The translations under genes and the position numbers were made by a program. This document shows, in pieces, positions 29,755 through 37,476 of a DNA stretch of 64,000 nt. Numbering within the stretch: position 1 is the first letter of the stretch; each line of letters starts with the position of its first letter. A model generated the notes under the pieces. The model searched no databases and was not told the DNA's origin. It worked only from the letters and a program-made list of their open reading frames with translations. The stretch covers positions 13,144,167 through 13,208,166 of the forward strand of contig OZ038465.1 in NCBI GenBank assembly GCA_964036295.1, given 5' to 3'. The DNA comes from Plumapathes pennacea. Taxonomy: Eukaryota > Cnidaria > Anthozoa > Antipatharia > Myriopathidae.

Positions 29755-32700
29755 TCAGACATGCGCCACACCGTTCTTAGCAGGGATCAGATTACTGTTA
29801 TTCTTCTGGTTGCCCTCAACAGCGCCACGGAGTTTCCGCAACTCCGACTGGATTTCGTCGACCAAGCGCTTCTCCAGGTTATCTAGCATCTCCATGGTTA
29901 CTTGTTGTTGGGGAGGATGAAATGGCACGTTGTTCCGGCGGAAACTCAAAAGGTGCTTGGAGCATTCACGTGACCCATCTGAATAGCGAACACCAGAATG
30001 AATAGAAGTTCATAAGAAATAACTCACTTTCTGTTGTCTACTCACTACCTGGTAACGGCTTACTTCCTGTTATTAACTCACTTCCTGTAAGCCGCTCACA
30101 CTTTCTTTCTAAAGAAATGATCTCTCACTTGATAAAAATCGTTATAACGACTTCTAAGAAAGAAAAAATCATCAAGAAACAACAACAACAATAATAATAA
30201 TAATAATAATAATAATAATAAATAAATAAATAAACAAGATCAAAACAACAAAGTCTAAAAAAATGACCTGTCACATGTTACAAAGAGTTTTAAGAAAGAC
30301 ATTGTCCATAAATAAATAAATAAATAAATCCTAATAACAATTCAAAGAAACAAGACCGACCTCTCCTGAGTTGGTGACCAGCTCTTCGGCGATTTCTCCA
30401 GTACCTGTATCCTTCCCAGATTACTCCAAGGATCGTAAGGATGCCCACAAGACCAAGGCAGCCCATCAGAGTCGGCCGGAAGAGTAGACCGTCAGGGTCG
30501 AAGATTCCTTTAGACTCTTCTGACGACTCGCCAAGGCCGCTCTGGGAAAACGAATGTGATGGTGTGGTGTGGTAAGGTATTAATTAACCAATCAATGAAA
30601 TAATGAAATAATCAATCAACCAACCAGCTAATCAAATAATTAAACAATTAATTAATCAATCAGTCAATCAAATAATTGAATATCATATCAACCAACCGTC
30701 TAACAAACCAGTCAATCAAGTACTTAAATAATCAAAAAATTAATCAATCAATCAACCAACCAATACGTAATTCAATCAATAAATCAATCAATCGATTCTT
30801 CTGAACCTGTCTTCTTTCTACAGGTATTCCACCGGTCGAACATTTGAACACGAGCCTCTGGTTCGGAAGAACGGAAAACTACTCCGTATGTTTCGACTTG
30901 AAATAAAGTTACCCTCTTTATTTATCAAATAATCAAACAACCAAATAATCAACCGATCAACAAACCAACCAACCAACCAATCAATCAATCAATCAATCAA
31001 TCAATCATTCATTCATTCATTTAATCAGTCAATCAATCAATCAATCAATCAATCAATCAGTCAATCAGAGAATCAATCAATCAATCAGCCAACCAATCAA
31101 TCAATCAATCAATCAATCAATCAATCAATCAATCAATCAATCATTCATTTAATCAATCAATCAATCAATCAATCAATCATTTAATCAATCAATCAATCAA
31201 TCATTCATTCATTTAATCAATCATTCATTTAATCAATCAATCAATCAATCAATCAGCCAACCAACCAACCAACCAACCAATCAATCAACCAACCAACCAA
31301 CCAACCAACCAACCAACCAACCAATCAACCAATCAATCAATCAATCAACCAGTCAGCCAGTCAATAGCAGCACGGAAATACAGTTTCGATTCTACAATCA
31401 CGTAGCGAGTCTTCGTTCGTGTTTCTTGTGACTGAATGAGTCTTACTTCAAGAGATAACAAATAAACGAGTCTCTACGAACCTTGAGTGATCCATTATTA
31501 TAAAACTCCAACAATTCGAACACAATGGATTCCTGTACGTATCTAAAGTTCCTTATGCAGGCTGACAGACTATCATCCTGAATGCGGGCGCCGTACTCTA
31601 GGGCATCTTGCGGAATGACTTCTTGAATGTCAAATTTATCACTTGGAAAGAGATCTCTGTGAGCTGCTATGGTGTAGCTGTCCAGAAGTGCCCCTGAGCC
31701 AACAAAACAGTGTGTCAGTTTCTCAGAAAAAAAGGGGAAAGAAAGAAAGACAGACTGACGGACAGACAGACAAACAGAAAAGCATTAAATCACCATCTTG
31801 GAAAACGGAAGTTAATCTGTTCGTTCGTATACGTCTCCTTACCGACGACTTCATTCTTGTCCAGTCGCTCTCTTATTTCCTTGATCGAGAGAACTCCTAC
31901 AACATAAAAGACAAACATCAACGTGACACATTGAACAGAATGAACTGAACATTTCAAAATATCCACACTGCAACAAGTAGTGAAACAAACTTACGAACAA
32001 CATCCGCTTGATAATTAAAAGCGGTGACAGCCTCAATGGAATTATATCTGGTCGCAATCTGAAAAACGAAGCCAAGAAAAAGTATAATGTCAACAAATCA
32101 TTATCATGTTCTCCCTACCATAAATGAGACAGTATAGGTGCATGGCACAGAGAGCATTTATACTTAAATCGACATCAAGAAACACTGTTTGTTGAGTCAC
32201 CTTTTGCGAGGCGCAAGCTATAGCAGACTGATCATAATATGTACAAGCGAGAGGTACAAACAAAGACAGAAACGGGTACAGGAAGAGGCACTTGTAAAAA
32301 GCCGGAGAACTATCAACACAGGGCAAAAGAATATCAGTATTCAAGTGTGAACTCAAGCAGAGGCGAAGATAGTCTCATAAACGTTTAAGCAGGTATAAAC
32401 TCAGGCACAAGCACAAACACTACAAATGCAGCCACAAAGATGGTCATAGTCTCATATAAACGTTCAAGCAAGCATAAACTGAGGCACAACACATTATATT
32501 ACAGGCAATTGCAGGCACAAGGACGTACATATTCTCACACAAACGTTCAAGCCAACTCAGGCACAGCACACATGTGGAGGAGTGGGGGGCTTATGGAGGT
32601 ACAGGAACGGTCATAGTCTCAGCCACCATCTCAAGTTCGTTAATTCAAGTGATACAACTAATTAAAGTTCAAATGGCCAGAGTACAAGAAGTAAGTCAAG

Positions 32701-35700: not shown

Positions 35701-37476
35701 ATTAAAGGGACGCCATTTGTATATTTTATTAAAATACTAATCGAAAATGTGGCCTCTTTCGCCGCAGGGTGCTTCAATAACAACCCGCCGCGACAACGAA
35801 AATCAACAATAGTTGCTCAAGCCAAATAGGTATCCTGATGAGGACATTAACATTTTGGCTGATTATAAAAATATTCTTTTGGGAAACGTTTCAAAGTGGA
35901 CTCCACGAAGAAGTCAGCAAAACACCAGACACATCTACAAAACTACAAAACTCGAGGACCTTCGAAGAGACCATCTCGCGTGTCTAACACCAGTTTAGAT
36001 ACACAAGAATAAATGCTTTAGATGGGTAAAAGCATTGTTTTTACCATCGTTTGAAATCGCAGCTCACGAAGACGTATTTTTAATTGGCGTCGATGAGTCT
36101 TGAGAGATATAACACATACCTGTAAATCACGAAGCCACAAGACAGGGACCTGAAAGTAATTTTGTTTTTGGTTTTGTTTTTGTTTTGTTTTTTTCATGAA
36201 GGCACACGACATTTAAAATGCTCGTTGTAGTCACAACTGTGCTGCTGTACATTGGCATACAGGCAAACAGGATGTTCAACTGACAATACCGCGCCGTTTG
36301 TTGAACAGCGACCAAATTCCAAGCCGTCGCGTACTTTAAAAATCATGCCCAAGGAAGTAAATACTTAATTCCTACTATTAGGGGATTTTCACCGGCTTTA
36401 TGGATTTAACATTCTCGATTTAAACTTCTTTTTCTGAAATACGACACTCGTGGAAGTCACAGGTGGCGAACCAAATTTGAGTTGAATGAAATATTTATAT
36501 CTCTGCACACCGAAATGCCAGGCCGATTAGTGAAGCACGCCTTTGTCTGTCGACGCCAATGTACTTTCAACAAATATTCCTCTATACTCTCCCGGTAAAC
36601 TGCCAGCGCGCGAAAAGTCAACTTTAAATTCTTTTGCGACGTTTAGCTTTCCCACATCGACTCCTTAGTCTATTCATTATACACGTTAGTACACAGATAA
36701 TCGAGCTCAAGGTCCGACTAATTTGTCTCAGGATGTCTATATATATATATATATATATATATATATATATATATATATATATATATATATATATATATAT
36801 ATATATATATATATATATATATATATATATATATATATATATATATATATATATATATATATTTATCACTTACTAAGTTTTGATTTGCAGCAATCGAAAC
36901 AACTGGAAACACCGACACAGACAAACACACACACGCACACACACCTGCGGACACAAGGGAATAAGGTAGATACTGGAACAACATCATAATACAATATTCA
37001 CATCCATACAACTTACGCGGTATCAGGCCTTCCGTAGAAGTTACTTCTCCAGTGTCAGAGTTCACAATCAGTTTGGCGTAAGGTGTTCTTGCTAGCTGAT
37101 CATTCCACGCCAAGCGAAGGACTGCAGGGCAATTCACTACGCCAGAAACGGGGCCAAACTCGGAACCAGAACCAGAACCAGAACCAGAACCAGATCCAGT
37201 TCCAGAACCACTCGATTCCAACTCATCGGTGGAGTTTTCTGCGATATTCGACCATGACGACGTTGCGGCGTTTACAGCACTGCTTGGTGAAGGCTTTGGC
37301 GTAACTGCAGCGGTCGAGTTGAAGCCTTGTGCGAGAGTGCGTCCTTCACTAATAATGATGACAGCAACAACCAGGAGAATTTTTGGGAAGAGCTGCCGAT
37401 TCATAACGTTTCCCAGCTGCAAAGCGACATTCATTTTCTTAACATCACCATTGATTAGGTGCTTGTAGTAATCCAA
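29755..37476 (-). CDS. Ionotropic glutamate receptor-like channel subunit with K+-channel selectivity filter (TTVGYGD)
   Basis: Nine minus-strand exons: 37476-37017, 34360-34041, 33854-33760, 33125-32969, 32058-31995, 31896-31843, 31693-31482, 30541-30361 and 29978-29755, all phase-matched. The best signal-peptide start is the ATG at 37404 ([19 protein letters not shown]), giving 564 residues; ATGs at 37434 and 37476 are also in frame. Order: signal peptide; Ser/Gly-rich linker; short S1 half of a ligand-binding domain ([33 protein letters not shown]); M1 at 216-236 ([20 protein letters not shown]); pore helix [16 protein letters not shown] with GYGD at 268-271; inner helix 281-303 ending [16 protein letters not shown] where iGluRs have SYTANLAAFL; S2 half 304-450; a third membrane helix 455-474 equivalent to iGluR M4; cytoplasmic tail with a predicted coiled coil ([20 protein letters not shown]). 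There is no amino-terminal ATD. A potassium-selective, ligand-gated channel is inferred from the filter; the ligand is unknown. Confidence 0.9.
30190..30236. repeat. (AAT)n / (AAAT)n microsatellite
   Basis: An AAT array passes into AAAT units, in the last intron of the channel gene. Confidence 0.85.
30585..31371. repeat. Long (ATCA)n / (ACCA)n tetranucleotide array
   Basis: AATC/ATCA units with ATTC and ACCA variants dominate almost 800 bases. They are densest from 30946 to 31371, inside the intron between exons 7 and 8 of the channel gene. The array ends about 110 bases before the exon 7 donor. Confidence 0.9.
33280..33720. mobile_element. Foldback element family A, copy 1, with ORF remnant
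   Basis: This is a 441-bp copy of the element at 41751-42238. The right half folds on itself: arms at about 33533-33617 and 33626-33711 begin CAATAAACTACTTTTGGC and end AAAAAGTAGTTTATTG. A short deletion removes part of the small reading frame present in copy 2. It is inserted in the channel intron between exons 3 and 4. Confidence 0.85.
34490..34625. mobile_element. Decayed relative of the CTGGGCCCGG MITE
   Basis: AGCTAATCTCAACCAGG, AGCTGCAGGGTTTGATTGAA and AGCTTGTTTCAGCTCAAAA echo the internal part of 26625-26861 in order. No terminal repeats remain. It is in channel intron 1. Confidence 0.4.
36737..36862. repeat. (TA)n dinucleotide array
   Basis: About 62 near-perfect TA units lie in intron 1 of the channel gene. 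The long Tyr/Ile frames across it are artefacts. Confidence 0.95.
37160..37210 (-). repeat. In-frame hexanucleotide repeat encoding Gly-Ser
   Basis: CCAGAA units on the plus strand read as repeated Ser-Gly on the coding strand in channel exon 1. They form the flexible linker between the signal peptide and the ligand-binding half-domain. Confidence 0.85.

Follow-up and report, generated by a model that had tools for sequence, protein, structure and literature searches.

Channels that join the frame of an ionotropic glutamate receptor (iGluR) to a potassium (K+) filter are described from bacteria and from a rotifer. For GluR0, a reversed topology and K+ channel activity are reported (PMC13099474). 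A glutamate-type binding site combined with a K+ filter was stated in 2010 to be restricted to bacteria, as far as the authors knew (PMC2950845), and AvGluR1 of the rotifer Adineta vaga followed in 2011 (Janovjak 2011, cited in PMC12332018). For this receptor, four membrane segments and K+ selectivity are reported (PMC11479355), as is its opening by several amino acids (PMC12226733). The gene analyzed here lies on the minus strand, at positions 37434-29755, of a stretch of 64,000 nucleotides from the antipatharian Plumapathes pennacea (contig OZ038465.1; C4:13144167-13208166 in the 290 Mb genome of 24 contigs that was searched), hereafter called the window; coordinates without a contig are those of the window. 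The product of this gene is probably a ligand-gated K+ channel subunit built as an iGluR, with an outside clamshell made of two lobes (S1 and S2), an inverted GluR0-type pore (M1-P-M3), a further membrane helix (M4) and a cytoplasmic tail. What is recognizable at the level of sequence is the gene structure, a GluR0-type pore with an intact filter, homology of S2, an M4, no match to an amino-terminal domain (ATD) and a family that numbers at least 43 loci.

AvGluR1, as described, resembles the window gene in being an animal receptor with a TXVGYG filter in an iGluR frame and four membrane segments, and it has been characterized as more like bacterial iGluRs (PMC11479355, PMC3483616, PMC12332018, PMC12226733). 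A K+ filter and an M4 are present together in one animal protein here, as in the AvGluR1-like class. AvGluR1 is a single receptor in these descriptions, whereas at least 43 loci occur in the genome studied here, with an intron in the filter codon of those read. With GluR0 and the prokaryotic Group 1 receptors the family shares the S1-M1-P-M3-S2 order, the GYGD and a Trp in M3, and with part of the GluR0 relatives an NPxxFP motif (PMC2950845, PMC13099474); it differs from GluR0 in having introns and a very divergent S1. GluR0 is also described as lacking the M4 (PMC11479355) that the window protein has. The canonical animal iGluRs (AMPA/kainate/delta/phi, epsilon and NMDA) have the order S1-M1-P-M3-S2-M4 in common with the window protein, which differs from them in its K+ filter, in the lack of a SYTANLAA gate and in having no ATD match; all five of the iGluR pores read in the same genome carry YTANLAA. 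The family is one of predicted channels that would function in the manner of AvGluR1 and GluR0, and on its M4 it stands outside the GluR0 class.

The pore bears the filter TTVGYGD at residues 275-281. An initial scan of genome_contigs (84,980 prokaryotic species) recovered no relative, and a pattern scan of this collection with the pore returned five loci. A GluR0-type gene of Picosynechococcus sp. PCC 7117 ranks best, and of the remaining four at least three are plain bacterial K+ channels. In its first part the PCC 7117 protein has matches to SBP_bac_3, Ion_trans_2, Lig_chan and Lig_chan-Glu_bd, and also to the structures 1iit and 1ii5 of Slr1257 (2e-22), which we take to be GluR0. PCC 7117 and window proteins are identical at 33 of 80 positions, and E-R-NP--FP and TTVGYGDRSPK are common to both. 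The PCC 7117 gene itself (L001:1871-3048) has a frame that is apparently broken within S2; a close relative from a different genome, L008, is open over 396 amino acids. Further relatives were sought in 146 genomes of the phylum of PCC 7117, 116 of which matched in some part. Each of 29 loci contributed one open frame, and 24 of these make up a GluR0 profile, five being left out as short or partial matches. The window pore matches this 24-member profile with an E-value of 9.9e-30. GYGD is missing in six of the 24 cyanobacterial relatives (L026, L027, L028, L029, L031 and L032), so a change of filter occurs among bacterial members too. Scanning viral_contigs with a cyanobacterial relative gave no match.

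A tree of pore sequences was built from ten members of the family, 18 of GluR0 type (the six without GYGD being omitted), six iGluRs from the eight loci fetched and five K+ channels. The six iGluRs, which come from the same genome as the family, are split at 100/99 from the family, GluR0 and the K+ channels. M3 carries a Trp at a constant distance from GYGD in 10/10 family members, 18/18 GluR0 sequences and 0/5 K+ channels (it was not scored in the iGluRs, which lack GYGD). The motif N[PK]..FP between M1 and the pore occurs in 10/10 family members, 7/18 GYGD-bearing GluR0 sequences, 0/6 iGluRs and 0/4 K+ channels, the fifth channel fragment beginning after the place of the motif and not being counted. 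These pore motifs favor kinship with GluR0. The pore tree allows that an ordinary K+ pore was recently fused into an iGluR gene of this genome, but such a fusion is not favored, because the NPxxFP (7/18) and the M3 Trp (18/18) are common to GluR0 and neither is found in the K+ channels compared.

A relation to GluR0 is also seen outside the pore. A profile of five family members reaching from S1 to S2, with a stretch unread where S2 begins in three of the five rows, aligns with the 24 cyanobacterial relatives in HHalign at a probability of 100 and an E-value of 5.3e-45 over 301 columns; the match is collinear from S1 through S2, and the pore supplies most of its strength. Over most of its length the S2 of the window protein scores 25.6 against that of GluR0, the best of 200 shuffles reaching 12.8, and an eight-member S2 profile matches GluR0 with an E-value of 1.3e-9 and a probability of 96, a result as high as which was found in none of 150 column shuffles. 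An Asp of S2 (Asp374 in the window protein) is kept in all eight members aligned and falls on an Asp of GluR0. In iGluR structures the position equivalent to Asp374 presumably binds the amino group of the ligand.

The nine exons of the gene, all on the minus strand, join into a single frame of 574 codons plus stop. All eight introns run from GT to AG, and their phases (1, 0, 2, 0, 1, 1, 0, 1) join without a stop codon; one donor, gttcgt after exon 7, is the sole weak one. An initial annotation of this stretch had proposed nine phase-matched exons, which this structure bears out, and its coordinates for the two pore exons (33854-33760 and 33125-32969) are exact. Its range for the gene ran to 37476; there is no ATG at that position, and the frame begins at 37434. 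Translation may start at this ATG (574 amino acids) or at another ten codons further on (564 amino acids); the length of 564 residues given earlier is that obtained from the second ATG and not from the first.

The protein runs in the order signal-like helix, Ser/Gly-rich linker, S1, M1, pore, M3, S2, M4 and basic tail, with hydropathy peaks at residues 10-28 (signal), 228-246 (M1), 291-309 (M3) and 464-482 (M4). Exon 1 (37017..37434), which has a counterpart in the neighboring paralog L075, encodes the signal-like helix, the linker of about 65 residues (amino acids 36-100) in place of an ATD and the first part of S1. Exon 2 (34041..34360) supplies the remainder of S1, to about amino acid 214, and M1 (amino acids 222-246). 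The NPDHFP motif, the pore helix, the TTV of the filter and the first two bases of the codon for its first Gly are in exon 3 (33760..33854); the phase-2 intron 3 (33126..33759) falls within this codon, and exon 4 (32969..33125) continues with the YGD of the filter and with M3 (amino acids 289-313) and its GluR0-type end. S2 starts in exon 5 (31995..32058) and extends through exon 6 (31843..31896) and exon 7 (31482..31693), the last including Asp374 within GALLDSY, aligned to the Asp of GluR0 S2. Exon 8 (30361..30541) holds the end of the extracellular part, M4 (amino acids 462-484) and its basic flank, and exon 9 (29755..29978) the cytoplasmic tail, with a heptad-like stretch (amino acids 529-554), and the stop. 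Long arrays of a TA microsatellite and of AATC repeats also lie within introns of the gene (36738-36866 and 30931-31348).

In Pfam the window protein matches Ion_trans_2 (1.3e-14) and Lig_chan (2.4e-10), both above cut-off, and neither SBP_bac_3, Lig_chan-Glu_bd nor any ATD family; a search of NCBIfam returned K+ channel models far under cut-off. Two of the three Pfam families named in the initial annotation are thus recovered, SBP_bac_3 being the one that is not. The proposal made there of a hybrid between GluR0 and animal iGluRs agrees with the GluR0-type K+ pore, the S1-M1-P-M3-S2 order and the M4 with its basic flank. The absence of an ATD, with a Ser/Gly linker instead, is also supported: about 100 residues precede S1, without a Pfam ATD match, and in the paralog L077 a signal-like stretch leads directly into S1. 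The SYTANLAAF gate had been called heavily altered; the motif is not there, and a GluR0-type end of M3 stands in its place.

The signal-like helix, the distribution of the N-glycosylation sequons (four in linker, S1 and S2 and a fifth in the tail) and the charge of the flank C-terminal to M4 (+6/0) suggest that S1 and S2 lie outside the cell and the tail inside. Stretches corresponding to M4 are present also in the paralogs L075, L076, L077 and L059. By homology, from which the whole mechanism is inferred, four subunits would assemble around an inverted K+ pore surrounded by the M4 helices, and the ligand, a small molecule that is probably an amino acid or another amine, would bind through Asp374 and a basic residue of S1. 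Binding would close the clamshell and pull on M3, and the pore would open; K+ would then exit, and the cell would hyperpolarize.

The paralog L075 is found about 9 kb past the end of the window (approximately C4:13217094-13220396), on the opposite strand, and because of this orientation it is not a tandem copy. Spliced alignment recovers the nine exons of the window gene; in L075 the first seven introns and their phases are identical, the frame is open and the gttcgt donor is kept. Over 494 codons the two genes show a synonymous divergence (dS) of 0.21 and a ratio of non-synonymous to synonymous divergence (dN/dS) of 0.47. Taken by part, this ratio is 0.18 in M1-P-M3, 0.39 in S2 and about 1.05 in S1, the value for S1 resting on just six synonymous and 20 non-synonymous differences. 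By these estimates the pore is constrained and the binding domain variable. The window gene is a real one: its first seven introns recur in L075, and purifying selection acts on the pore. A chance GYGD in a non-coding frame was considered as well, and was ruled out by L075 and by the match to the GluR0-type profile.

The intron within the filter is a recurrent character. Seventeen distinct family genes were read, taken from the best matches of a genome search with the window protein and from three further stretches. In every one (17/17) the acceptor pattern AG-N-TAY-GGN-GAY falls on one and the same codon, and a phase-2 intron therefore splits the first Gly codon of the filter. A matching donor pattern was found in eight of the 17, the pattern being strict and exon 3 not present in every locus. 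At this site the iGluR pores read in the same genome are unbroken (5/5). In a cluster on contig C10 the matches to Lig_chan break at profile positions of about 65-70, window exon 4 starting at 59; as these breaks are only a few residues further on, introns near this position of the pore are not confined to the K+-filter family. The C10 cluster (5.01-5.17 Mb) contains many two-exon Lig_chan matches and is apparently a separate iGluR-like expansion with an intron near the pore.

In order to estimate the size of the family, the whole genome was searched with the window protein (85 matches at an E-value of 10 or better) and with the S1-M1-P-M3 part of the paralog L076 (164 matches at 0.01 or better). 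The best 150 of these 164 matches were grouped into loci by contig, strand and exon order, a rule of our own, after 12 of the 150 had been excluded and 138 kept. The 12 look like ordinary K+ channels, because a single open frame of more than 300 amino acids runs across the filter in each; having been picked by this single-frame property, they carry no evidence on the filter intron. At least 64 loci were obtained, at least 43 of them with the S1-M1 exon and one or more pore exons, at least 24 with all three exons sought and at least 52 with the GYGD-M3 exon; single-exon loci may include other channels, and the group at C3:17.47 Mb is possibly two genes. As judged from these searches, the window gene is one member of a family with dozens of paralogous loci, and clusters of this family are found at C4:8.45-8.57 Mb, C12:2.67-2.69 Mb, C12:10.05-10.10 Mb and C4:5.98-6.28 Mb. 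Given these clusters, and an S1 evolving more rapidly than the pore, the family may be a chemosensory repertoire, inhibitory in sign.

Some results weigh against a ligand-gated, GluR0-related subunit, and they bear on the alternatives. The shorter core of S2 is equalled by one of 200 shuffles against GluR0, and a similar eight-member S2 profile reaches among solved structures a best E-value of 0.35, with AncQR, which we take to be an amino-acid-binding protein. The S1 of the window protein alone is not detected against GluR0 (128 of 200 shuffles score as high), and a five-member S1 profile is marginal (one of 150 shuffles as high), with order and place right. No ligand-binding model of Pfam matched the S1 and S2 pieces, and S1 and S2 joined found no receptor among solved structures with phmmer. 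Arg184 of S1 lies one or two columns off the Arg of GluR0, and the residue is basic in four of five members. An S1 this divergent, with a dN/dS of about 1 between close paralogs, an Arg without firm alignment and no ligand-binding match in Pfam, would suit a ligand-independent K+ leak channel or a modulatory subunit, in which a binding domain that has lost its ligand would serve assembly or the formation of heteromers, as in some insect co-receptors. Compatible as it is with the other alternatives, this explanation is unlikely in view of the S2 Asp kept in 8/8 members, the collinearity with GluR0 and the dN/dS of 0.39 in S2, and expansion of the family would suit diversification of ligands better than that of leak channels.

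On the side of the pore, the best matches in solved structures are K+ channels, both for the single sequence and for the family profile; the pore tree leaves it unsettled whether GluR0 or ordinary K+ channels are the nearest kin, and only 64% of bootstrap trees show the family as a single group. These matches, and a tree that allows K+ channels as nearest kin, could be read as signs of a K+ channel in ordinary orientation with extra domains, its filter facing outward and S1 and S2 in the cytoplasm. Such an arrangement is very improbable, however, given the N-terminal signal-like helix, the four of five sequons in linker, S1 and S2, the strongly basic flank that follows M4 and the collinear alignment with GluR0, whose topology is reported as reversed (PMC13099474). 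That the gene is a pseudogene or a set of mis-joined exons is scarcely credible: the donor after exon 7 is weak, and in spliced alignment exon 8 of L075 ends differently and its tail exon is not recovered, but the nine exons are open, the paralog has the same first seven introns and the gttcgt donor, and the pore is under purifying selection. A ligand-gated K+ channel may also be the right reading and the chemosensory role the wrong one, the receptor acting instead in synaptic or developmental inhibition or in volume or ion regulation. A role of this kind, which could be compared with the part of cyanobacterial GluR0 in cell volume regulation (PMC13099474), seems somewhat unlikely, as at least 43 loci, many of them clustered, and a variable binding domain would rather resemble a sensory repertoire.

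The ionotropic receptors of insects and other protostomes are an expanded and divergent repertoire derived from iGluRs, mostly without a typical ATD. To our knowledge no K+ filter is known among them, and they are thought to depolarize. It is conceivable, and put forward here tentatively, that one animal genome holds at least 43 loci of inhibitory chemoreceptors, in the form of locally clustered, GluR0-type ligand-gated K+ channels with an added M4. No multigene animal family, and no cnidarian member, of the K+-filter iGluR type was found in searches of open-license papers, and subscription papers could describe one. If such a repertoire exists, it would be the mirror image in sign of the insect ionotropic receptors, and K+-selective glutamate-receptor-like channels would represent an ancient or horizontally gained animal lineage and not a rotifer oddity, with the supposedly ancestral K+-selective form of the glutamate receptor surviving in an animal as a large family of genes. 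It would also offer dozens of natural channels for studying the passage from a K+ pore to a non-selective excitatory pore and the addition of M4, would bear on the use that animals make of ligand-gated K+ channels in inhibitory sensing, and is a possible source of ligand-gated K+ tools to silence cells.

Other genes are present in the window, and the DUF229, SPRY/SOCS-box, rhodopsin-type and cyclase genes among them, together with the YTANLAA receptors elsewhere in the genome, indicate an animal host. A search for the GFP family gave no match, either here or in its controls, and so carries no weight on a cnidarian identity, which is plausible. A long open frame at 8220-11042 (plus strand) matches DUF229 (8.8e-30) after a Ser-rich N-terminal stretch, and two open frames with SPRY and a SOCS box, at 12886-13500 (minus) and 20135-20866 (plus), are perhaps paralogs. 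Pieces of a rhodopsin-type G-protein-coupled receptor at 24726-25526 and 26837-27292 (plus) are probably exons of one gene. A putative cyclase (PF04199, 3.3e-30) is encoded at 63009-63536 (minus), and a second stretch at 62201-62629 on this strand, matching PF04199 below cut-off (5.6e-4), probably belongs to the same gene.

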